DNA of 64,000 nucleotides from an uncultured Bacteroidia bacterium (GTDB taxonomy: Bacteria; Bacteroidota; Bacteroidia; Bacteroidales; UBA932). The stretch is taken from positions 93,939 to 157,938 of the forward strand of contig CADAND010000005.1 in NCBI GenBank assembly GCA_902789245.1. Direction: 5' to 3'. A program made the position numbers and the translations under genes. This document shows, one piece after another, positions 14,056-61,147 of the stretch. Numbering within the stretch: position 1 is the stretch's first letter; each line of letters begins with the position of its first letter. The notes beneath the pieces are model-generated. The model searched no databases and was not told where the DNA came from. It saw nothing but the letters and a program-made list of their open reading frames with translations.

Positions 14056-14135
14056 ACCTGTCATCCTGAGCGCAGCGAAGGATCTCGTCATGCCCGACAC
14101 CCCTCCGTCATGCCCGACCTGATCGGGCATCTCAG
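14056..14135. repeat. Dispersed palindromic repeat, intergenic copy
   Basis: GTCATCCTGAGCGCAGCGAAG is followed by GTCATGCCCGAC and by a hairpin ATGCCCGA-CCTGA-TCGGGCAT. Related sequences recur at 24.3-24.5, 43.98-44.01, 57.57-57.65, 58.33-58.46 and 60.46-60.55 kb. Here it lies between genes. Confidence 0.85.
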
Positions 14136-23994: not shown

Positions 23995-24095
23995 GGGGCA
24001 CCAGAGCCATGTTTTGCCCCCGGCAGACAAATAATCGCGTCGCCAGGGGCGCCAGTGCCATGTTTTGCCCCCGGTAGGCGAAACAATGCGTCGCC
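23995..24095. repeat. Two 51-bp tandem repeats
   Basis: Two copies beginning at 23995 and 24046, each with GCCATGTTTTGCCCCCGG and ending near GCGTCGCC, about 80% identical. They lie between the GSCFA gene end and the ABC promoter. No gene is visible here; the copy length is a multiple of three. Confidence 0.75.
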
Positions 24096-24104
24096 GAGTG
24101 GGTG

Positions 24105-25172
24105 CTAGCGCAGGGGGCGGTGGGCGGCGGCGCGACTGGCGCGCTCGGCGGCGAGGATGCGTTCGCGGTCGGCAGGGTCGGTGCAGGCGTCCAGGAAGCG
24201 TTCCCAGATGAGTTGGACGGCAGCAGGGGCGGGGTGGACGAGGTCGTCGGCGTAGAATCGGTAGTCCCGGAGTTCGTCCAGCAGGATCTCGTAGGCCGGG
24301 AAATAGTGCACGGCGGACGTAAAACCAGCGTCGCCGGTGCTGCCTGACGGCGAAAGCTCAGCCGCAGCAGGATTCGTGGCGCCGAATCCGGTTCCCGCGT
24401 CAGCGGGAAGCGAGGATGGAAGCCGAGCCGCAGGCACACCGGGACGCTTTACGTCCGCCGACCGGGATTCCGGGGCAAACCCGGATGGGAAGGGATTCCG
24501 GGTCAAGCCCGGAATGACTGTGAGGGGTCCGGAAAGGACCTGTTGTATCGCCAGATGCAAGGTGGATTTCGAGACGGTGTTGGCGTGGGCGCCCTCGCCG
24601 AGGTGGCGGATCGGCGAGACCGTGAGCAGGAAGCGCTTCTCCGGATGCGCTTCGATGATGCTGCGCAGCAGCTCCGTGCATGTTTCGACGGAGAGGAGCT
24701 CGTGCGCGAATTCGCGCGCGGGGCGCTTGAGGCAGTTGGCGACGACGGGCTGGCCGGGGCGCTCGAGGGCGCGCCAGACCCAGGCGGTGCCGAGGGTCAG
24801 GATGACGACGCCGCAGTCGCGCCAGCGGGCGGCGTCTTCCGCCAGCCGTGCGTTCGCATGCGTCAGGAACTCTTCCGCCGTAGGGCGGGCGAAGGAGGTG
24901 TGGTGCGAGAAACTGCCGATGCGCCCGGCGCCGGCGCCCATTTCCACACAGTCCTCCCGCGTGAAAGGCTCGGCGCTGTCCAGCCGCGCCACGGCCGCCG
25001 CGAGGGAGGCGGGGTTGTAGAGCGTGCCGAAGGGATTGCGGAGCACGTCGAAACCGGCGGCCTCGAGCCGCGCTCCCATCTCGTCGGCAAAGCAGCTGCC
25101 CAGGACGCAAACAGAATCGGAATGCGCAATTGTGATATTTATTTCGCAGTGGATATCGGTAAACAGTTTCAT
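24105..25172 (-). CDS. GSCFA-domain protein with in-frame repeat insertion
   Basis: 355 residues from MKLFTDIHCEINI. The family motif appears as VLGSCFADEMGARL (catalytic-type Ser in a GDSL/SGNH-like fold), and VSPIRHLGEGAHANT and HYFPAYEILLDELRDYRFYA follow; these proteins are thought to act as esterases or acyltransferases. Between the Leu-rich helix LAIQQVL and HYFPAYEI, where relatives continue directly, about 70 residues rich in Pro, Gly and Ser are inserted (bases about 24311-24530). They include VIPGLTRNPF and contain five hairpins at DNA level. The rest of the gene is intact. Whether the protein still folds is open. Confidence 0.84.
   Translation of the reverse strand: MKLFTDIHCEINITIAHSDSVCVLGSCFADEMGARLEAAGFDVLRNPFGTLYNPASLAAAVARLDSAEPFTREDCVEMGAGAGRIGSFSHHTSFARPTAEEFLTHANARLAEDAARWRDCGVVILTLGTAWVWRALERPGQPVVANCLKRPAREFAHELLSVETCTELLRSIIEAHPEKRFLLTVSPIRHLGEGAHANTVSKSTLHLAIQQVLSGPLTVIPGLTRNPFPSGFAPESRSADVKRPGVPAARLPSSLPADAGTGFGATNPAAAELSPSGSTGDAGFTSAVHYFPAYEILLDELRDYRFYADDLVHPAPAAVQLIWERFLDACTDPADRERILAAERASRAAAHRPLR
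24311..24522. repeat. Composite palindromic insertion inside the GSCFA gene
   Basis: CGGCGGACGTAAA (24311) and TTTACGTCCGCCG (24448) bound a 150-bp block with hairpins GGATTCG/CGAATCC and TTCCCGC/GCGGGAA. It is followed by two copies of the ATTCCGGG...CCCGGAAT hairpin, the second (around 24496-24516) with the sequence of the dispersed family. The total preserves the reading frame and contains no stop on the coding strand. Confidence 0.82.
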
Positions 25173-25180
25173 AATCGGGA

Positions 25181-25188
25181 CAAATTTA
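25181..25188 (-). promoter_or_regulatory. -7 box of the GSCFA gene
   Basis: TAAATTTG on the minus strand, eight bases before the ATG. Confidence 0.5.
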
Positions 25189-25189
25189 G

Positions 25190-25197
25190 TAATTTCG
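25190..25197 (+). promoter_or_regulatory. Possible -7 box of the nucleotidase gene
   Basis: TAATTTCG, one mismatch to TAnnTTTG, six bases before the ATG at 25204. It is adjacent to the divergent GSCFA box; the whole intergenic region is only 31 bp. Confidence 0.4.
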
Positions 25198-25203
25198 CGG
25201 GTT

Positions 25204-26916
25204 ATGAGACACAAACTGATTGCCATATTCTCAGTTGTACTGAGTTTGGTCACTGCCTGTGCCCCGAAAGAGCGCACCCTGCACATTGTTACGACTGGCG
25301 ATGTCCACGGATCCTGGTTCGACGAACCTTACGTCGACGGCCAGGCGAAGAAGACGAGCCTGATGTCCGTCAGCGCCTGGGTCGACAGCCTGCGGCAGGC
25401 CGTGGGCAAGCAGAACGTCCTCCTGCTGGATGCCGGAGACTGCCTGCAGGGAGACAATGCTCCCTATTACTATAATTACGTTGATACGGAGGGCGAGCAC
25501 CTGTTCGTCCAGCTGGTGGATTATATGGGGTACGACGCCGTGGCCGTAGGCAACCATGACATCGAGACCGGCCATCCCGTGTACGACAAAGTCAACGAAC
25601 AGCTGCGCGCCCGCGGCATCCCTTTCCTGGCGGCCAACGCTGTCGGCGAGGACGGCCAGCCCTATTTCGCCCCTTATAAAGTCTTCCGCCGCGGCGGCCT
25701 CAAGGTGGCCGTGATCGGCTTCACGAATGCGAACATGAAGGCATGGCTGGACGAGAAGATATGGAGCGGAATAGAATTCCAATCCCTGATCCCCTGCGCG
25801 CAGGAATGGGTGGACAAGGTCCGCGAAACGGAACACCCGGACGTGGTCGTGGTGCTGACACACTCCGGTACGGGCGAGGGGGATGGCTCCATCCTCGAAT
25901 CGCAGGGACTCGACCTGCTGGAGAGCCTGCAAGGCGTGGACGTGCTCGTCTGCTCGCATGACCATGTCCCCTTCGTCAAGGAGAAGGACGGTACCTGGCT
26001 GATCAACGGCGGCGCCCGTGCGGGCAACGTCGGGCATGCTGTTATCACGGTCTCCAAGGCCGCCGGGAAGCAGGTCGTCGGCGAGACGGTCCGCATGGAC
26101 AAGAATAAGGTGAACGAAGCGATGAAAGAGCAATTCCACCTGGCTTTCGAGGCCGTCAAGGCCTTTACCCTGCAGCCCGTGGGAGCGCTTTCGGTGGATC
26201 TTCATACGCGCGACGCATACAAAGGCATGTGCGACTATGCCGCGCTGATCCACATGGTCCAGCTGGAGGCGTCCGGCGCCCAGATTTCCTTCATGGCACC
26301 GCTGACGTTTGACGGTACGGTCGCGGCCGGACAGGTGATCTACAACGACATGTTCACGATCTATCCGTTCGAGAACCAGTTGTACGTCCTGCGGATGAAA
26401 GGGTCGGAAATCAGGGACTATCTGGAGTATTCCTACGACAACTGGATCCAAACCCCCGGGGAACACGTCCTGAGAATCTCCGATTCGCCGGATCCCAGGA
26501 CGGGGGCGCAGCATTGGTCCTTCGTTTCCCGGACCTACAATTTCGATTCAGCGGCCGGATTGGTCTATACCGTGGATCTGACAAAGCCTTTCGGGAAGCG
26601 GGTGAAGATTACCTCGCTTGCAGACGGCACCCCGTTCAAGCAGGACGAATGGTATACCGTGGCCATGACATCGTATCGTGCCAGCGGCGGAGGGGAGATT
26701 CTCCAGAAGGGAGCAGGTCTGTCGAAGGAAGAGGTTGATGAACGGATCCAGGAACGTCTTCCCGAGATCCGTGAGATGGTCTACCAGTACTTCAAAAAGC
26801 ACGGCACCGTGGGCACCCAGGACTTTGGCAACCGCGCCGTGCTCGGTGAGTGGTACTTTGTGCCGGAGAAACTCGTTGCCCCGATGTTCGAAAAGGACCT
26901 TTCGCTTATCTTCTGA
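25204..26916 (+). CDS. 5'-nucleotidase family lipoprotein
   Basis: 570 residues from MRHKLIAIFSVV with lipobox VTAC. The N-terminal metallophosphatase domain has all metal motifs: GDVHGSW, DAGDCLQGDN, VGNHDIE, LTHSGTGEG and SHDHV. The C-terminal 5'-nucleotidase domain (about residues 330-540) gives substrate specificity, with the aromatic pair region YPFENQLYV and YRASGGGEI. It hydrolyses nucleotides or related phosphate esters at the cell envelope. The end overlaps the convergent ffh gene by 11 bp. Confidence 0.93.
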   Translation: MRHKLIAIFSVVLSLVTACAPKERTLHIVTTGDVHGSWFDEPYVDGQAKKTSLMSVSAWVDSLRQAVGKQNVLLLDAGDCLQGDNAPYYYNYVDTEGEHLFVQLVDYMGYDAVAVGNHDIETGHPVYDKVNEQLRARGIPFLAANAVGEDGQPYFAPYKVFRRGGLKVAVIGFTNANMKAWLDEKIWSGIEFQSLIPCAQEWVDKVRETEHPDVVVVLTHSGTGEGDGSILESQGLDLLESLQGVDVLVCSHDHVPFVKEKDGTWLINGGARAGNVGHAVITVSKAAGKQVVGETVRMDKNKVNEAMKEQFHLAFEAVKAFTLQPVGALSVDLHTRDAYKGMCDYAALIHMVQLEASGAQISFMAPLTFDGTVAAGQVIYNDMFTIYPFENQLYVLRMKGSEIRDYLEYSYDNWIQTPGEHVLRISDSPDPRTGAQHWSFVSRTYNFDSAAGLVYTVDLTKPFGKRVKITSLADGTPFKQDEWYTVAMTSYRASGGGEILQKGAGLSKEEVDERIQERLPEIREMVYQYFKKHGTVGTQDFGNRAVLGEWYFVPEKLVAPMFEKDLSLIF

Positions 26917-42885: not shown

Positions 42886-43956
42886 TTAACAGCATTTAAG
42901 GACGGAGGGAAGTCCTGGTTTCATGATTTCCTTTTCATTCATTCCCAAGTACTTCCTGGCTGGGTCGTAGGGGATGCCGATCTTGTCGAGCAGCGGCTCC
43001 ACGGCCACCTGATGCACCTGGAGTCCGAGGTCCCAGGGATCCACGCCGAGCACGAGCCCAGCCAGCTCTTCGTAGGTGAGGACGGGGATGCCGTAGCCGT
43101 TCCGGCCGTAGGTCTTGCCCGTCTGCTCTGCGATGACGTACTGCCAGCGGTCCAGAAAGTAGGGACAGCCCGGGCAGTTGGTGATGATCGCATCCGGGTG
43201 GAAGGGCTCCATGGATTCGAATTTCTTGTGCGTATTGGATACGGAGTAGCCGCGGTTGGCCTGGACGAAATACTGACGGAAACCGAAGCCGCAGCAGTGG
43301 CGGCGCTCCGGGTAATCGATGATCTGGCCGCCCCAGGATTCGGCCATGCCGCTTAGTACGCAGGGGTACTCGGCGCCGCCGACACCCTTGTGGGGGAACA
43401 TTTTGGAATAATGGCAGCCGATGTGTTCCACAATGCGCAGGGGCTCGCCTGTGGCGCGCGATACCAGGTGGTATTTCGCCCGCTCGGCAATCTCGCCGCG
43501 CAGCTTGTACACCAGGTCGCTGGCGTGCGCAACGTATTTGGGTTTGTTGAACTCGCGCCGGCAGGCCTTCCAGAGGTGCTCGCGGATTTTCGCTTCCAGC
43601 TCCGGGAACTCCCGCCAGGTCTCCAGAATCTCGGTGTAGTTGCCGAAGGAGGTGATGCAGGAGGTCACGAGGTTGTCGTAGCCGGCCTCGGTCATCAGTG
43701 CGAACTGGCGCGCCACGACGGTCATGGCCGTCTCCTGCGGGATGGTGTCGCAGTGATAGGCGATGCCGGCGCAGGTGGTGTGGTGCTCGGATTCATAGAT
43801 GTCGCGACCGAGCAGGTCGCGGCAGATCTTGAGGAAGTATTTCTCGCTGGCCGGAAAGAAATTCTGCCGGATGCAGCTCCGGACATAGAACCAGTGGTCG
43901 TCCGGAATCTCTTTCTGGTAGTCCGCCCAGATCTTCTGTTTGCCTTGGTAAATCAT
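42886..43956 (-). CDS. HdrB-like CCG-domain protein
   Basis: 356 residues with the Cys-rich CCG pattern: HIGCHYSKMF ... HCCGFGFRQYF ... NCPGCPYFLD in the C-terminal domain. In methanogen HdrB such domains hold the noncubane 4Fe-4S clusters that act on a disulfide. The N-terminal CCG domain is degenerate (HTTCAGIAYHCD). The partner substrate is unknown here. It follows the HdrC-like gene after a 55-bp gap that contains a dispersed repeat. Confidence 0.86.
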   Translation of the reverse strand: MIYQGKQKIWADYQKEIPDDHWFYVRSCIRQNFFPASEKYFLKICRDLLGRDIYESEHHTTCAGIAYHCDTIPQETAMTVVARQFALMTEAGYDNLVTSCITSFGNYTEILETWREFPELEAKIREHLWKACRREFNKPKYVAHASDLVYKLRGEIAERAKYHLVSRATGEPLRIVEHIGCHYSKMFPHKGVGGAEYPCVLSGMAESWGGQIIDYPERRHCCGFGFRQYFVQANRGYSVSNTHKKFESMEPFHPDAIITNCPGCPYFLDRWQYVIAEQTGKTYGRNGYGIPVLTYEELAGLVLGVDPWDLGLQVHQVAVEPLLDKIGIPYDPARKYLGMNEKEIMKPGLPSVLKCC

Positions 43957-43983: not shown

Positions 43984-44014
43984 TCCGTCATTCCCGACCT
44001 GATCGCGAATCTCA
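43984..44014. repeat. Dispersed palindromic repeat at the end of the HdrC-like gene
   Basis: GTCATTCCCGACCTGATCGCG and GAATCTCATT resemble the family consensus GTCATTCCCGGCTTGACCGG...GAATCTC. The stop codon of the HdrC-like gene (44012-44014) lies within its end. Confidence 0.7.
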
Positions 44015-57131: not shown

Positions 57132-57161
57132 TTTGTACATACTGAAAAATGCTTACATTTG
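57132..57161 (+). promoter_or_regulatory. Promoter of the NtrC-type regulator
   Basis: TTTG (57132-57135), 18 bp, TACATTTG (57154-57161), ending eight bases before the ATG at 57170. If used, the upstream ATG at 57149 cannot be the start and the mRNA has almost no leader. Confidence 0.55.
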
Positions 57162-57169
57162 TCCACACT

Positions 57170-58594
57170 ATGGCATCCCGAAAAGGAAAATTACTCATTG
57201 TGGACGATAATGCCGGCATCCGCCAGGCGTTGAAAATCCTGCTGCCCCTGCATTTTGCGGAGGTGGAGGCGTTGCCTTCGCCCGTGACGCTGGTTTCCAC
57301 GCTGGAGCGCTTCCGCCCGGATGTGGTGCTGCTGGACATGAACTTCAACACGAGCATCAACACGGGCAACGAAGGGCTCTACTGGGCCGGGGAAATCAAG
57401 AAGATGGTGCCGGAAGTGGAGGTGGTGCTCTTCACAGCCTATGCCGATATCGCCCTGGCGGTGGAAGGCATGAAGCGCGGGGCGTTCGACTTCATCGTGA
57501 AGCCGTGGGACAATGAGAAATTGATTGAAGTCCTGACCGCTGCCCGGGACAAGGCCCGCAAGGCGATGGGGAGAGATTCTTCGGGCTCCACCCTCAGAAT
57601 GACAGGTGCCGGCGGTGATTGTCATTCTGAGCGAAGCGAAGAATCTATGTTCTGGGGCTCCTCGAAACCCATGCTGACCATCCGCAGGACGCTGGACAAG
57701 ATTGCGCCCACGGACGCCACGGTTCTGATCACCGGCGAGAACGGTACCGGCAAGGACGTGCTGGCGCGGGAAATCCACGCCCACAGCCTTCGGAGCGGGA
57801 AGCCGATAGTGGCCGTGGATGCGGGTGCCATCCCGGAGACGCTCTTCGAGAGCGAGCTCTTCGGCCATATCAAGGGTGCGTTTACCGACGCGCATGCAGA
57901 CCATGCGGGTAAATTTGAGCAGGCCGACGGGGGGACGCTGTTCCTCGACGAAATCGGCAATATCCCGCTGCACCTGCAGGCAAAGCTGCTGCGGGCCATC
58001 CAGAGCCGGAGCATCGTCCGGGTGGGCGGCAGTGCGCCCATCCCCGTCAATATCCGGCTGATCTGCGCCACCAACATGGACCTGGAGGCGCTGGTCCGGG
58101 AGGGCCGCTTCCGGGAAGATCTGTATTATCGTATCAATACCGTCCACATCGCCCTGCCGCCCCTGCGGGAGCGCAAGGAGGACATCGTTCCGCTCTCGCA
58201 ACTGTTCCTGGAACGCTTTGCCGGGAAGTATCACCGGCCGCTGACGGGGCTGGATGATTCGGCGAAGGCGGTGCTGGAAAGCGGCCGCTGGAGCGGCAAC
58301 ATCCGGGAGCTGCAGAACTGCATCGAGAAGGCTGTCATTCTGAGTGAAGCGGAGAATCTTACGGCCAGGGACATAGATGCCCGATCGGGGTCGGGCATGA
58401 CGGCAGGCGAGCCGGGCATGACGTCCGACGTCATTCCCGGCTCGACCGGGAATCTCCTCCGCAACACGCAGGAGGAAGAGCGCCTCGTCCGCGACGCCCT
58501 GGAGCGCAGCAACGGCAATATTTCCGCCGCCGCCAAGATGCTGGGCGTGAGCCGTCCGACGCTGTATGCAAAATTGAAAAAATACGGTTTATAG
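57170..58594 (+). CDS. Sigma-54-dependent response regulator with two repeat insertions
   Basis: 474 residues from MASRKGKLLIVDDN. The receiver domain has phospho-acceptor Asp56 (VVLLDMNF) and Lys111. The AAA+ domain shows GENGTGKD (189-196), GAFTDA (the sigma-54-contact loop, usually GAFTGA) and LFLDEIGNIPLHLQAKLLR; the C-terminal Fis-type HTH is ISAAAKMLGVSRPTLYAKLK. Two short foreign-looking stretches lie in linkers: about 135-158 (HSERSEES) and about 404-430 (VIPGSTGNLL). Both are translated palindromic repeats. The catalytic core is untouched, so the protein may be functional. It is directly followed by a histidine kinase gene and an efflux operon. Confidence 0.9.
   Translation: MASRKGKLLIVDDNAGIRQALKILLPLHFAEVEALPSPVTLVSTLERFRPDVVLLDMNFNTSINTGNEGLYWAGEIKKMVPEVEVVLFTAYADIALAVEGMKRGAFDFIVKPWDNEKLIEVLTAARDKARKAMGRDSSGSTLRMTGAGGDCHSERSEESMFWGSSKPMLTIRRTLDKIAPTDATVLITGENGTGKDVLAREIHAHSLRSGKPIVAVDAGAIPETLFESELFGHIKGAFTDAHADHAGKFEQADGGTLFLDEIGNIPLHLQAKLLRAIQSRSIVRVGGSAPIPVNIRLICATNMDLEALVREGRFREDLYYRINTVHIALPPLRERKEDIVPLSQLFLERFAGKYHRPLTGLDDSAKAVLESGRWSGNIRELQNCIEKAVILSEAENLTARDIDARSGSGMTAGEPGMTSDVIPGSTGNLLRNTQEEERLVRDALERSNGNISAAAKMLGVSRPTLYAKLKKYGL
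57570..57648. repeat. Dispersed palindromic repeat inside the regulator gene (first)
   Basis: AGATTCTTCGGGCTC...CTCAGAATGACA and GTCATTCTGAGCGAAGCGAAG (57621 on) lie head to head, separated by about 15 bp, and can form one long hairpin. Located in the receiver-AAA+ linker; frame kept. Confidence 0.85.
58333..58459. repeat. Dispersed palindromic repeats inside the regulator gene (second)
   Basis: GTCATTCTGAGTGAAGCGGAG, then GCCCGATCGGGGTCGGGC, then GTCATTCCCGGCTCGACCGG with GAATCTCCTC. The latter two lie head to head. They occupy the linker between the AAA+ and Fis domains, in frame. The first may partly be native sequence, because relatives also read KAVILSE here. Confidence 0.82.
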
Positions 58595-58722
58595 ATGGAA
58601 CAGGTGCTGCTGCCGACAACCCTTCGCAGCCTTGGGCTGCTTGTCCCTCCCACCTGCGGCGGGCCCCTCCCGCTCATGATGCCGCGGGCGGCACAGCTTG
58701 CTGGCAGCACACCTGTTCCATC
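58594..58722. repeat. 129-bp inverted-repeat element at the start of the kinase gene
   Basis: GATGGAACAGGTGCTGCTGCC (left; written as GATGGAACAGGTG plus CTGCTGCC) and GGCAGCACACCTGTTCCATC (right) pair over 20 bases with one bulge. An inner hairpin GCAGCC-TTG-GGCTGC is present. The left arm begins at the last base of the regulator's stop codon and supplies the kinase ATG. Confidence 0.83.
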
Positions 58723-59596
58723 CAAGACGCTTTTGGCAATTCTGATTGCGATTGCTTTTACCGTATTGGTTTGGTTGTTAGCGTCTTTGGTTACGAGGCG
58801 GAAGGATATCAAGAAGGTAGCCTATATGATGGATGCGCTGGAGGACGGCGAGCTGAATTTCCGCTTCCAGGAGAAAAACAGGTTCAACCGCACCCTGAAC
58901 CGCATCCGCACCATCTTCGAGAAGCAGCGCCAGGCCCACGAGCAGGATTCCTGGACCAAGCTGATCCGCGTGCTCACGCACGAGATCATGAATACGGTGT
59001 CGCCGATTGCGTCCCTTTCCGATGCGATGGCGAAGTCTGTAGACGAGAACGGACACAGCGAGCTGGATATCAAAACGGGGCTGGAGACCATCAGCGATTC
59101 ATCGAAGAATCTTATCGGCTTTGTGCAGACCTACCGTCAGCTCTCCGGTGTGGCGAAGCCGGTCCGCAAGGCCCTGGCCCTGCAGGAACTCATGGACAGC
59201 GTCATCGGCTTGAACAGCGAGTTTGCGGCCAACTGCGGTGCTACCTGCCGGTATCGGCCGGAAGAGGACGACCTGATGATTTATGCCGACGAAGGGCAGA
59301 TCTCGCAGATCCTCATCAACTTGATCAAGAACGCCCTGCAGGCAGGTGCGAAGCATATCGACATGGCTGCGAAGATGGGCAAGGATGATGAAGTGATTAT
59401 TCAGGTGGCCAATGATGGCGAGCCCATCCCCGCATCGGCCCAGGAGCAGATATTCATCCCGTTCTACACCACCAAGAAGGAAGGCTCCGGTATCGGCCTG
59501 TCCATCTCCCGCCAGATTATGCGGAACCACAACGGCACCCTTGAGCTGCTGTGCAGCGATGACCGCCAGACCGTGTTTGAGCTCCGGTTCAGGTAG
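58595..59596 (+). CDS. Sensor histidine kinase, N-terminus formed by a repeat element
   Basis: 333 residues in the longest form. Residues 1-42 are encoded by the inverted-repeat element and look unlike any kinase start. A membrane helix (about 45-66), a short linker, the H-box LTHEIMNTVSP (His129), and the N (LINLIKNALQAG), G1 and G2 (GSGIGLSISRQIM) boxes follow. Relatives next to NtrC-type regulators usually have two N-terminal helices and a PAS domain, absent here, so the sensor part may have been lost. ATG codons at 58676/58679 or later are other possible starts. Presumed partner of the preceding regulator. Confidence 0.83.
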   Translation: MEQVLLPTTLRSLGLLVPPTCGGPLPLMMPRAAQLAGSTPVPSKTLLAILIAIAFTVLVWLLASLVTRRKDIKKVAYMMDALEDGELNFRFQEKNRFNRTLNRIRTIFEKQRQAHEQDSWTKLIRVLTHEIMNTVSPIASLSDAMAKSVDENGHSELDIKTGLETISDSSKNLIGFVQTYRQLSGVAKPVRKALALQELMDSVIGLNSEFAANCGATCRYRPEEDDLMIYADEGQISQILINLIKNALQAGAKHIDMAAKMGKDDEVIIQVANDGEPIPASAQEQIFIPFYTTKKEGSGIGLSISRQIMRNHNGTLELLCSDDRQTVFELRFR

Positions 59597-59761
59597 TATC
59601 CGCGCGGAGAAACTGTAAAGTTGTAAAGCCGAGAGTGTAAAGAGTTGTAAAGTTCTTTACACTTTTTTGTTGTGCGCTCAGTTGTCTAACTTTTGATAAT
59701 CAGCATGTTGCGTGTTTTGGCACGGGGAATGTTGCGGGAGAAGGCGATTAAACGATATCCT
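59597..59761 (+). other. Leader region before tolC-like gene
   Basis: It holds the terminator described separately and an AT-rich spacer. The direct repeats GTAAAGTTGTAAAG and GTAAAGAGTTGTAAAG near 59614-59655 form part of the terminator region. No gene is seen. Confidence 0.6.
59634..59668 (+). terminator. Terminator after the kinase gene
   Basis: AGTGTAAAGA and TCTTTACACT form a 10-bp stem followed by TTTTTT. It separates the two-component pair from the efflux genes. Confidence 0.78.
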
Positions 59762-61147
59762 ATGCTGACCAAATCTAAAAGCAATTGGTTCTTTTTGGCC
59801 CTGGCGCTCGCCGTGACGGTAAGCGCCCAGGGTCAGGAACCACTGAATCTGCATGACTGCATGGAGTATGCAATCTCCAACTCTACCAAGATGCGCATCC
59901 AGCAGGCCGCTGTGGGTGACGCTCAGATCGCGCGTCGCGACGCGGCCCTCGCGCTGTTCACCCCGCAGATCACCGCGCAGACCTATGCGTACTACAACTT
60001 CGGCCGCAGCATCGACCCGCAGACGAACACCTATTTCAACACGACCTCCTTCCACAACAACTATGGCGTGAGCGCCGGTTTCGAGCTCTTCGACGGATTC
60101 AAGGCTGTGAACAACTACAAGATTTCCAAGACGGGAATGCTCATCGCCAGCTCGCAGGAAAAGCAGGTGGAAGCCGACATCTGCCTGGCGGTGATGGAGG
60201 CGTACTATAATGTGGTTTATTACAAGCGCCTGTGCGATGTGTACGAGGAGCAGTTGGCCGTGGCCGAGCAGGCGCTGGCCAAGGCCCGCCGCCAGGAAGA
60301 GCTGGGCCAGAAGGGCCACGCAGACGTGATCCAGATGGAGGCCGACCTGGCTGACCGTCAGTACGAGCTGACGAATACTCGCAACCAGTACGAAGACAAG
60401 AAGATGACCCTAGAGGACCTGATGTTCTGGCCGCTGGACGAGGAGCTGGAGATTGTGACGGATATGTCCGATCAGGTCGGACATGACGGAAGTGCCATCC
60501 CCGGCTCTTCCACCGTCATTCCCGGCTTGACCGGGAATCTCCTCGCGGACGAGATCGTCGCTTTCGCCATGGACCACAACCCTGCCGTGCAGATCGCTTC
60601 CTGGCAGGCGCAGAACGCCAAACGGGAGCTCAACACCGCCAAGTGGCAGCTGCTGCCCTCCCTGGGTCTCTATGCCGGCTGGAACACCAGCTATTATTCC
60701 TACCAGGGGGCGTCCACCGCTCCTTTCGGGGAGCAGTTCCGCAACAACGGCGGCGAGTACATCCAACTCTCCGTCTCCATCCCCATCTGGAACCGCATGA
60801 GCCGCCAGGGAGCCATTTCGCGCAAGCGCAACGCCCTCAGCAAGGCCACGGCCGAGCTGGACCAGAAGCGCCGCGACGTGGCCTCCGAGGTGCGGCGCGC
60901 CATCCAGGACCGCGACGGTTCGGCGCTCGCCTATGAGCAGGCGCAGCACAAGGCCGAGGTTCAGGCCGAGGCCTACGCGCTGAACCTCAAGAAACTCGAG
61001 CAGGGGCTCATCTCGCCGCTGGAGTTCCAGACCGCGAACAATAATTACCTCAAGGCCCAGGCCGACGAGATGAACAGCCTGTTTAGGTACCTCATCAAGC
61101 AGGCGGTAGTCCGCTATTACAATGGTGTTGAATACGTAAATCAGTAA
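59762..61147 (+). CDS. TolC-family outer-membrane efflux protein with repeat insertion
   Basis: 461 residues from MLTKSKSNWFF with signal peptide (near SAQGQ, residue 24). Long coiled-coil helices and two beta segments form the trimeric exit duct (LHDCMEYAISNSTKMRIQQ, cited in part as LHDCMEYAISN). Residues about 235-261, between EELEIVTD and ADEIVAFAMDHNPAVQI, are a translated palindromic repeat (SDQVGHDG, VIPGLTGNLL) not expected in the family; it falls at the loop between the two halves. It is followed 4 bp later by the HlyD gene. Confidence 0.88.
   Translation: MLTKSKSNWFFLALALAVTVSAQGQEPLNLHDCMEYAISNSTKMRIQQAAVGDAQIARRDAALALFTPQITAQTYAYYNFGRSIDPQTNTYFNTTSFHNNYGVSAGFELFDGFKAVNNYKISKTGMLIASSQEKQVEADICLAVMEAYYNVVYYKRLCDVYEEQLAVAEQALAKARRQEELGQKGHADVIQMEADLADRQYELTNTRNQYEDKKMTLEDLMFWPLDEELEIVTDMSDQVGHDGSAIPGSSTVIPGLTGNLLADEIVAFAMDHNPAVQIASWQAQNAKRELNTAKWQLLPSLGLYAGWNTSYYSYQGASTAPFGEQFRNNGGEYIQLSVSIPIWNRMSRQGAISRKRNALSKATAELDQKRRDVASEVRRAIQDRDGSALAYEQAQHKAEVQAEAYALNLKKLEQGLISPLEFQTANNNYLKAQADEMNSLFRYLIKQAVVRYYNGVEYVNQ
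60463..60545. repeat. Dispersed palindromic repeat inside the tolC-like gene
   Basis: TGTCCGATCAGGTCGGACA (hairpin) with TGACGG and, head to head, CCGTCATTCCCGGCTTGACC with GGGAATCTCC. About 81 bp, a multiple of three, no stop in frame. Confidence 0.88.

Follow-up and report, generated by a model that had tools for sequence, protein, structure and literature searches.

Palindromic repeats of the CGTC type as probable insertions in interdomain linkers of proteins from a rumen Bacteroidales lineage

Introduction

How did short palindromic DNA come to lie, in frame, inside two protein-coding genes of a rumen Bacteroidales bacterium? The genes encode a sigma-54 response regulator and a TolC-like outer membrane efflux protein, and they lie in a 64,000-nucleotide stretch of DNA (the window), which is part of contig C5 of a 2.28 Mb genome in 28 contigs. 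Rickettsia provides the best-known examples of in-frame palindromes, and an earlier note on this DNA had proposed, by analogy, that three segments of it are copies of a self-spreading element family tolerated by three host proteins. We found that the segments very probably represent insertions of CGTC-type repetitive extragenic palindromic (REP) units into interdomain linkers, and that the same linkers have apparently been recolonised by several palindrome families.

Because palindromes seem to have landed repeatedly in flexible joints and apparently are translated there, selfish-looking DNA would be rewriting the same linkers in related species. This gut lineage shows in-frame palindromes in many species at once, and sister species differ at the same linkers, so that a possible role of palindromes as a source of new protein sequence, and their route of entry, become directly testable by comparison and with natural orthologs, such as IspG proteins with linkers of 18, 52 and 56 residues.

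The CGTC superfamily of REPs, which has Bacteroidetes among its hosts, combines a CGTC tag with a stem, a loop and a 3-nt tail that mostly reads CCA; the stem measures 8-9 bp with A and T in its first two positions, and the loop 4-5 nt (PMC3733652, Di Nocera et al. 2013; statements on this paper, here and below, refer to excerpts of it). According to the same excerpts, RPE-4 and RPE-6, two Rickettsia palindromic elements (RPE) of R. conorii, belong to this superfamily, whose members have in-frame intragenic copies, apparently lack a dedicated transposase and tend to form head-to-head dimers, with some families occurring as clusters. REPs were described at about the same recB site in two Xanthomonas species, and flexible linkers were suggested as neutral sites. 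RPE are given a length of 105-146 bp and the enterobacterial ERIC/RU elements, which are fused in frame to genes, one of 103-168 bp (excerpts of PMC2229807).

Repeat units in the regulator and TolC genes

We located the units with a covariance model, from which the window coordinates and scores of all REP units derive. The regulator gene (57149-58594, plus strand; receiver, AAA+ and Fis HTH domains by Pfam) contains two REP sites. In linker 1, between the Pfam matches Response_reg (residues 16-129) and Sigma54 (170-334), two type A units stand head to head, one on the minus strand (57573-57604; 23.3 bits, E 1.4e-5 in the window) and one on the plus strand (57620-57647; 27.3 bits), which yields the peptide HSERSEES. 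Linker 2, between the AAA lid (340-412) and HTH_8 (443-479), holds two type B units, at 58374-58402 (minus strand, 33.3 bits) and 58429-58456 (plus strand, 46.4 bits; peptide VIPGSTGNL). In the TolC-like gene (59693-61147, plus strand; two stretches matching Pfam OEP), a head-to-head pair of type B units (60461-60488, minus strand, 28.9 bits; 60514-60541, plus strand, 46.6 bits, peptide VIPGLTGNL) comes after the first OEP stretch (53-244). The reading frames are open across the sites.

The earlier note had placed the segments at domain linkers, in frame and without stops, and this held. So did the kinship it had seen with repeats at 14.06 and 43.98 kb, where we found a type A unit (14059-14086, plus strand, 34.6 bits) and a type B unit (14106-14133, plus strand, 43 bits), both intergenic by gene calling, and another type B unit (43986-44013, plus strand, 35.3 bits) upstream of the start of the open reading frame (ORF) 42886-43956 on the minus strand. 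The host proteins number two instead of three, the regulator with two sites and TolC, and while REP units are present in all three segments, the first part of the second (58333-58359) is not an added one.

The window units start with CGTC or TGTC as an unpaired tag, of which GTC was fixed by design in the search pattern. Type B has an 8-bp stem with A and T first and a 5-nt loop; in type A, two of the eight stem pairs are mismatched, and a 30-nt type has a 9-bp stem with a 6-nt loop. The 3-nt tail reads CTC, which the search pattern required, other tails being uncounted. Since tag, stem and loop are as in CGTC REPs and a tail of 3 nt is present as well, the small element is, judged by its letters, a new subfamily of these that departs in pairing. 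Shared with the superfamily as excerpted are the CGTC/TGTC head, the 8-bp stem starting with A/T, the 5-nt loop of type B and the 3-nt tail, together with in-frame intragenic copies and an apparent lack of a dedicated transposase; differing are the tail (CTC versus the usual CCA), the minority share of pairs and the two mismatched pairs of the type A stem. The units were kept in the superfamily in spite of the few pairs because dimers are only a tendency in that paper (PMC3733652). The comparison with Rickettsia was apt in that the small repeats share tag, stem and loop with the superfamily that includes RPE-4 and RPE-6 (PMC3733652). No publication related to the REP letters or peptides was found in one open literature library.

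The part at 58333-58359 encodes EKAVILSE, and EKA(V/I)I occurs at the same place in 63 of 64 regulator orthologs; ortholog L089 has a gap there, and L080 alone has added residues directly after. By this alignment the part is a native motif, not an insert. The REP model gives the segment (58333-58360, plus strand) 13.7 bits, with E 0.039 in the window and 0.37 in 613 kb. This DNA and REP type A agree in 24 of 26 letters, and in L053, L060 and L093 all 26 agree; most orthologs use other codons, with G where these have A. This near-identity to type A over a native motif leads us to suspect that the DNA may have been overwritten by a REP on a native look-alike in part of the clade, which would be a hint of copying in by similarity.

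The same linkers in orthologs

Ortholog counts cover 80 loci, the best 80 of 122 relatives; judged by TolC, rumen Bacteroidales/Bacteroidia metagenome-assembled genomes (MAGs) are the closest ones that bear a name. We mapped 168 of 207 REP matches on these loci (E up to about 0.05). All 61 matches in the regulator fell at residues 138-172 or 394-442, and 32 of the 36 in TolC at residues 255-290, the other four lying at 39-51. The neighbouring histidine kinase gene had a single match (70 alignments) and that of HlyD none (68 alignments), while 70 of the 168 lay outside these four genes. The two regulator linkers were occupied in 23 and 16 of 64 orthologs, and the TolC site in 20 of 80. In a tree of 64 rows from which the insert columns had been left out, presence and absence required at least 14, 11 and 8 changes at the three sites, gain and loss being undistinguished. 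This tree used only the mapped REP matches within the regulator and TolC genes, and presence and absence alone were relied on, as the REP type labels came from a crude rule that was wrong for L063 at least.

The sister species L053 is 94% identical to the window over 770 columns; its TolC site encodes type A peptides (RSFAGAQDE and VIPSDSEES) in place of the window's type B, and its linker 1 has a single type A unit in place of the window's pair. Among the pairs listed, of 471 pairs, near relatives carry swapped units or unrelated short linkers at the same sites, and in many orthologs without a REP match the linker is short and unrelated, for example IDTSMPVWQIEPVATESVV. Relatives without the insert were thus found in the alignments, and the same residues are not carried by all. 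The tblastn alignments that span the three sites (62, 64 and 80 of them) each run as a single stretch with no stop at the site. In sum, the repeats are dispersed, the units at a given linker differ among orthologs or are missing, the flanks are conserved and the frame is kept. Given open and length-compatible frames, the inserts are apparently translated as part of their host proteins.

REP units were also seen at other places of these loci. The tiny gap that separates the tolC stop from the hlyD start contains differing REP stem types or pairs in L051, L054, L078, L084, L097, L098, L107 and L129, and a few bases only in other species. A REP pair lies near the tolC start at L082:5910-5974; the sequence of close relatives at this place is a different one, unrelated to it.

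A dispersed family across the genome

A generic REP pattern gave 77 matches in the genome (42 + 35), as opposed to one (0 + 1) for the reversed pattern. With up to three mismatches, the GAGCGAAGC type (type A) was matched 19 times and its control not at all, and identical REP 27-mers recur at many places in the genome. The stem variants covary, as in TTCCGGG/CCCGGAA, TGCCCGA/TCGGGCA, TCCCCGA/TCGGGGA and TTCGCCGG/CCGGCGAA. Across 13 hand-picked unit types (the leading C of these model rows was set by hand), compensatory stem changes filled 15 two-sided cells versus a shuffled mean of 4.4, a value reached in 0 of 500 shuffles; two of five measures, pairs with double change and further pair types, were not above shuffles.

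The genome-wide count, based on the scoring of 150 out of 3117 candidates, sets a minimum for true units, and a few of the matches are look-alikes. It gave 126 matches at E<=0.01, or 125 units once C1:76455-76475 had been dropped as the opposite-strand reading of another. These group into 110 clusters, of which 98 have one unit only, and three of the remaining 12 consist of exactly one minus-strand and then one plus-strand unit. Pairs are undercounted here, since only part of the candidates was scored and two weaker partners in the window were missed. By a motif test, which also misses some pairs, an inverted head stood on the head side of 9 of the 125 units and on the tail side of 8, with 3 for the reversed motif. 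The description of the copies as mostly head to head therefore fits the three sites of the window, though not the genome with its undercounted pairs.

By gene calling, 57 clusters are intergenic, 21 have coding sequence on one side only and 32 lie in frame inside a gene, compared with a called coding share of about 0.85. Intragenic copies elsewhere in the genome, on which the earlier note had made its reading depend, thus exist. The 32 clusters reside in 29 ORFs. For 28 of these ORFs a Pfam family was matched at 1e-5, and any more specific name is our own reading. Core genes among the hosts, namely MutL, PriA, FtsK, MurF-like, MetH, gyrase/topo IV A and ATP synthase gamma, support insertion into linkers, and further hosts are MutY-like, two ECF-type sigma factors, HrpB-like (two sites), aspartate-semialdehyde-dehydrogenase-like and DsbD-like ORFs, besides the window's regulator and TolC. 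One of the 32, a segment of a rubrerythrin gene (C2:67854-67881, locus L182 of the same genome; 23.9 bits), is probably a native look-alike because it lies inside one unbroken Rubrerythrin domain match, a caution for REP censuses. Gene calling by nucleotide-background codon scores or by longest-ORF self-training set many genes on the wrong strand and was dropped.

Element E2 and exchanges among repeat families

A larger palindrome, E2, was first met in ATP synthase gamma, where residues about 57-105 match elsewhere in the same genome and are absent from 16 aligned homologs. In the window it occupies one linker of a GSCFA-family gene (24105-25286, minus strand; Pfam PF08885 in two stretches) together with an adjoining REP unit (24492-24519, minus strand, 31.3 bits). 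E2 is a Y-shaped hairpin (24311-24460) with ten matches in its own genome. Aligned cores and folds define a conserved 77-nt core with two apical hairpins (24351-24427, minus strand), a semi-conserved inner stem and outer arms whose letters change with the locus yet pair with one another, here as a perfect 13-nt inverted repeat (24311-24323 with 24448-24460, minus strand). The arm score averaged 19.7 for true pairs versus 12.5 for mismatched pairs, and it was at least 16 in 15 of 19 true pairs versus 49 of 342 mismatched ones (0 of 5000 permutations), several of the 19 loci being orthologous and so not fully independent; the weak or truncated loci L256, L260 and L265 were left out of the test. 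Stretches of 195-198 nt fold with -77.8 to -106.2 kcal/mol.

E2 lies in frame in six genes (GSCFA, ATP synthase gamma, MurE-like ligase, ABC-F-like ATPase, MBOAT and GcpE/IspG), several of which look essential, and of its other four matches one is intergenic by gene calling and three are unclassified. Of 11 genomes of relatives searched, 5 contain it, G119 by a weak match only (E 0.003). The search of Rfam 15 with window 24200-24650 gave no match up to E 1, and E2 was not found in the plasmids or phages searched, nor in IMG/VR by one exact pattern.

Comparison with five relatives (G119 to G122 and G129) revealed several families in the same linkers. The IspG linker measures 52 residues with E2 in our genome and in G120, 56 with a reversed E2 in G122, and 18 both with a REP in G121 and as a short linker in G119; that of GSCFA has 81 residues in our genome, 39 in G121, 7 in G122 and 8 in G119. 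Both linkers are read through without a stop. At the MurE-like linker, E2 is present in our genome and G122 and truncated in G129; G121 has other sequence, G120 a short REP-like palindrome and G119 a short linker. In ATP synthase gamma, E2 is found in our genome and another palindromic repeat, E4, in G122 (L278) and G129 (L279), while a further repeat, E5, occurs in the ABC-F-like gene of G121 (L281) and in ATP synthase gamma of G129 (L279). Counting overlapping and partial matches, E4 is matched 27 times in our genome, 42 in G122, 10 in G129, 6 each in G120 and G121 and 0 in G119; in the stretches of our genome that were examined, six of seven copies are intergenic and one is terminal. For E5 the numbers are 3 in our genome (two weak), 2 in G120, 7 each in G121 and G122, 3 in G129 and 0 in G119. 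One open literature library yielded no publication on recolonisation at this scale, on such a mixture of families or on E2 with its tailored arms; on in-frame or intragenic palindromes it offered PMC3733652 and studies of other organisms, for instance PMC2229807, PMC2759123, PMC5896051 and PMC6649704.

Discussion

Insertion of the units into linkers would be explained as follows. Insertion, or copying in by template switching, would occur widely, and selection would purge any copy that disrupts a folded domain or the reading frame. Copies would survive in unstructured linkers and in gene 3' ends and gaps, those in linkers being translated. As a linker that accepts one palindrome would accept the next, the same few linkers would be recolonised, trimmed and swapped by unrelated families, namely REP types A and B, E2, E4 and E5. 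Candidate movers are a trans-acting HUH (Y1/RAYT-like) enzyme and replication template switching at hairpins.

Some observations weigh against insertion. Neither a clean target-site duplication nor a single insertion point was seen in the relatives' alignments, where linker residues are replaced and not simply split. Eight stops occur in the regulator and TolC alignments, all of them off-site (seven at residues 4-24 and one at TolC residue 214 in L104). The relatives are mostly MAGs, and the gene calls stem from our own Markov model, seeded with homologs of four window genes. Structure models had a mean pLDDT of 63.5 and 63.0, with the inserts in low-confidence stretches of models that are weak throughout; given this low overall confidence, the disorder of the inserts lends weak support.

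The linkers might instead be ordinary, fast-evolving native sequence that matches the repeats by chance or codon bias. This is true of one part, 58333-58359, and the rubrerythrin segment also scores as a REP inside its domain, but 77 matches versus one in the control, identical 27-mers at many places and orthologs that lack the other parts of the sequence argue against it, and we regard it as highly improbable. Alternatively, the hairpin could be kept for a role in RNA, as a terminator or through mRNA stability or translation speed, with coding copies as by-products or as regulators of their own gene. In line with such a role, stems stay paired while their letters change, and REPs are enriched in convergent gene gaps (26 of 71 versus 41 of 415 other gaps, in stretches chosen around REPs). 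A convergent bias would, however, also come from purging in promoters, and patchy presence among orthologs together with swaps among unrelated families speaks against a fixed role, which makes this explanation unlikely.

As to the manner of spread, replication template switching with recombination between look-alikes, requiring no transposase, is a serious possibility, though short of probable. It would account for the frame-preserving overlap of REP A with the native VILSE motif in several species, and for the locus-specific outer inverted arms of E2, which are expected from snap-back copying of the flank; both these arms and the overlaid DNA at 58333 point to copying at hairpins, though neither is proof. 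It also agrees with the result of a search for the transposase family PF01797, none of whose matches in this genome reached the cut-off. Two Y1-like genes below it, which count against spread without a transposase, lie at L157:913-1848 and L156:1330-1824, both on the minus strand, with the motifs DNHVHFILYG and DNHIHFILYG; one match is a protein of 311 residues, and the second gene, inside whose frame there is a weak REP model match (18.8 bits), seems split over two frames. Spread by a RAYT/HUH transposase in trans, to which the 311-residue protein would lend itself, is a possibility that we view with some doubt. GTAG REPs have been hypothesised to be mobilised by RAYT (excerpts of PMC3733652), and a strong PF01797 match (E below 1e-17, a threshold set in this analysis) was present in 8 of 13 REP-rich genomes (at least 15 matches) versus 18 of 106 others (Fisher p 0.001, kinship uncorrected). 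REP counts in the 119 family genomes, on the other hand, did not differ in rank between those with and without a strong match (p 0.99, kinship uncorrected), and the REP-richest of the 119 is this very genome, an exception without a match over the cut-off. The REP closest to the 311-residue gene is 767 bp away from its start, on the far side of another ORF, and neither Y1-like gene is directly flanked by REPs. The self-spreading character that the earlier note had assumed was thus not borne out, although REP-rich genomes more often have a PF01797 match. A more far-reaching proposal, which we consider rather unlikely, is that linkers serve as shared landing zones for unrelated palindrome families, that E2 inserts by hairpin-directed inverted copying of the flank, giving a stem tailored to its locus, and that mutual replacement writes new linkers in essential genes.

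Insertion of CGTC-type REPs into linkers, our preferred reading, has parallels in several known systems. Within the CGTC superfamily, recB is the one case of orthologs hit at the same site in the excerpts of the paper (PMC3733652), whereas many orthologs are hit at one linker here. RPE likewise are in-frame, protein-tolerated palindromes in conserved genes, with translation in our case deduced from the frames, and their 105-146 bp are near the length of E2 (PMC2229807); E2 differs in its locus-specific outer arms, its rumen Bacteroidales host and the absence of sequence kin in the searches made. GTAG REPs are short dispersed palindromes as well, but the units described here have a CGTC tag, and no REP-flanked RAYT gene was seen. 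Perfect inverted repeats of up to 284 bp reportedly occur inside protein-coding genes of Nematomorpha mitochondria, which resemble the present case as inverted repeats in coding genes and differ in being perfect and in residing in animal mitochondria. The ERIC/RU elements, too, are small mobile repeats that genes take up in frame, but they are enterobacterial and 103-168 bp long, and several families recurring in one linker were not found for them in the excerpts of PMC2229807.

Apart from the palindromes, the window contains two tandem repeats, one at 829-1036 with a 78 bp unit in 2.7 copies and one at 23995-24095 with a 51 bp unit in 2 copies.

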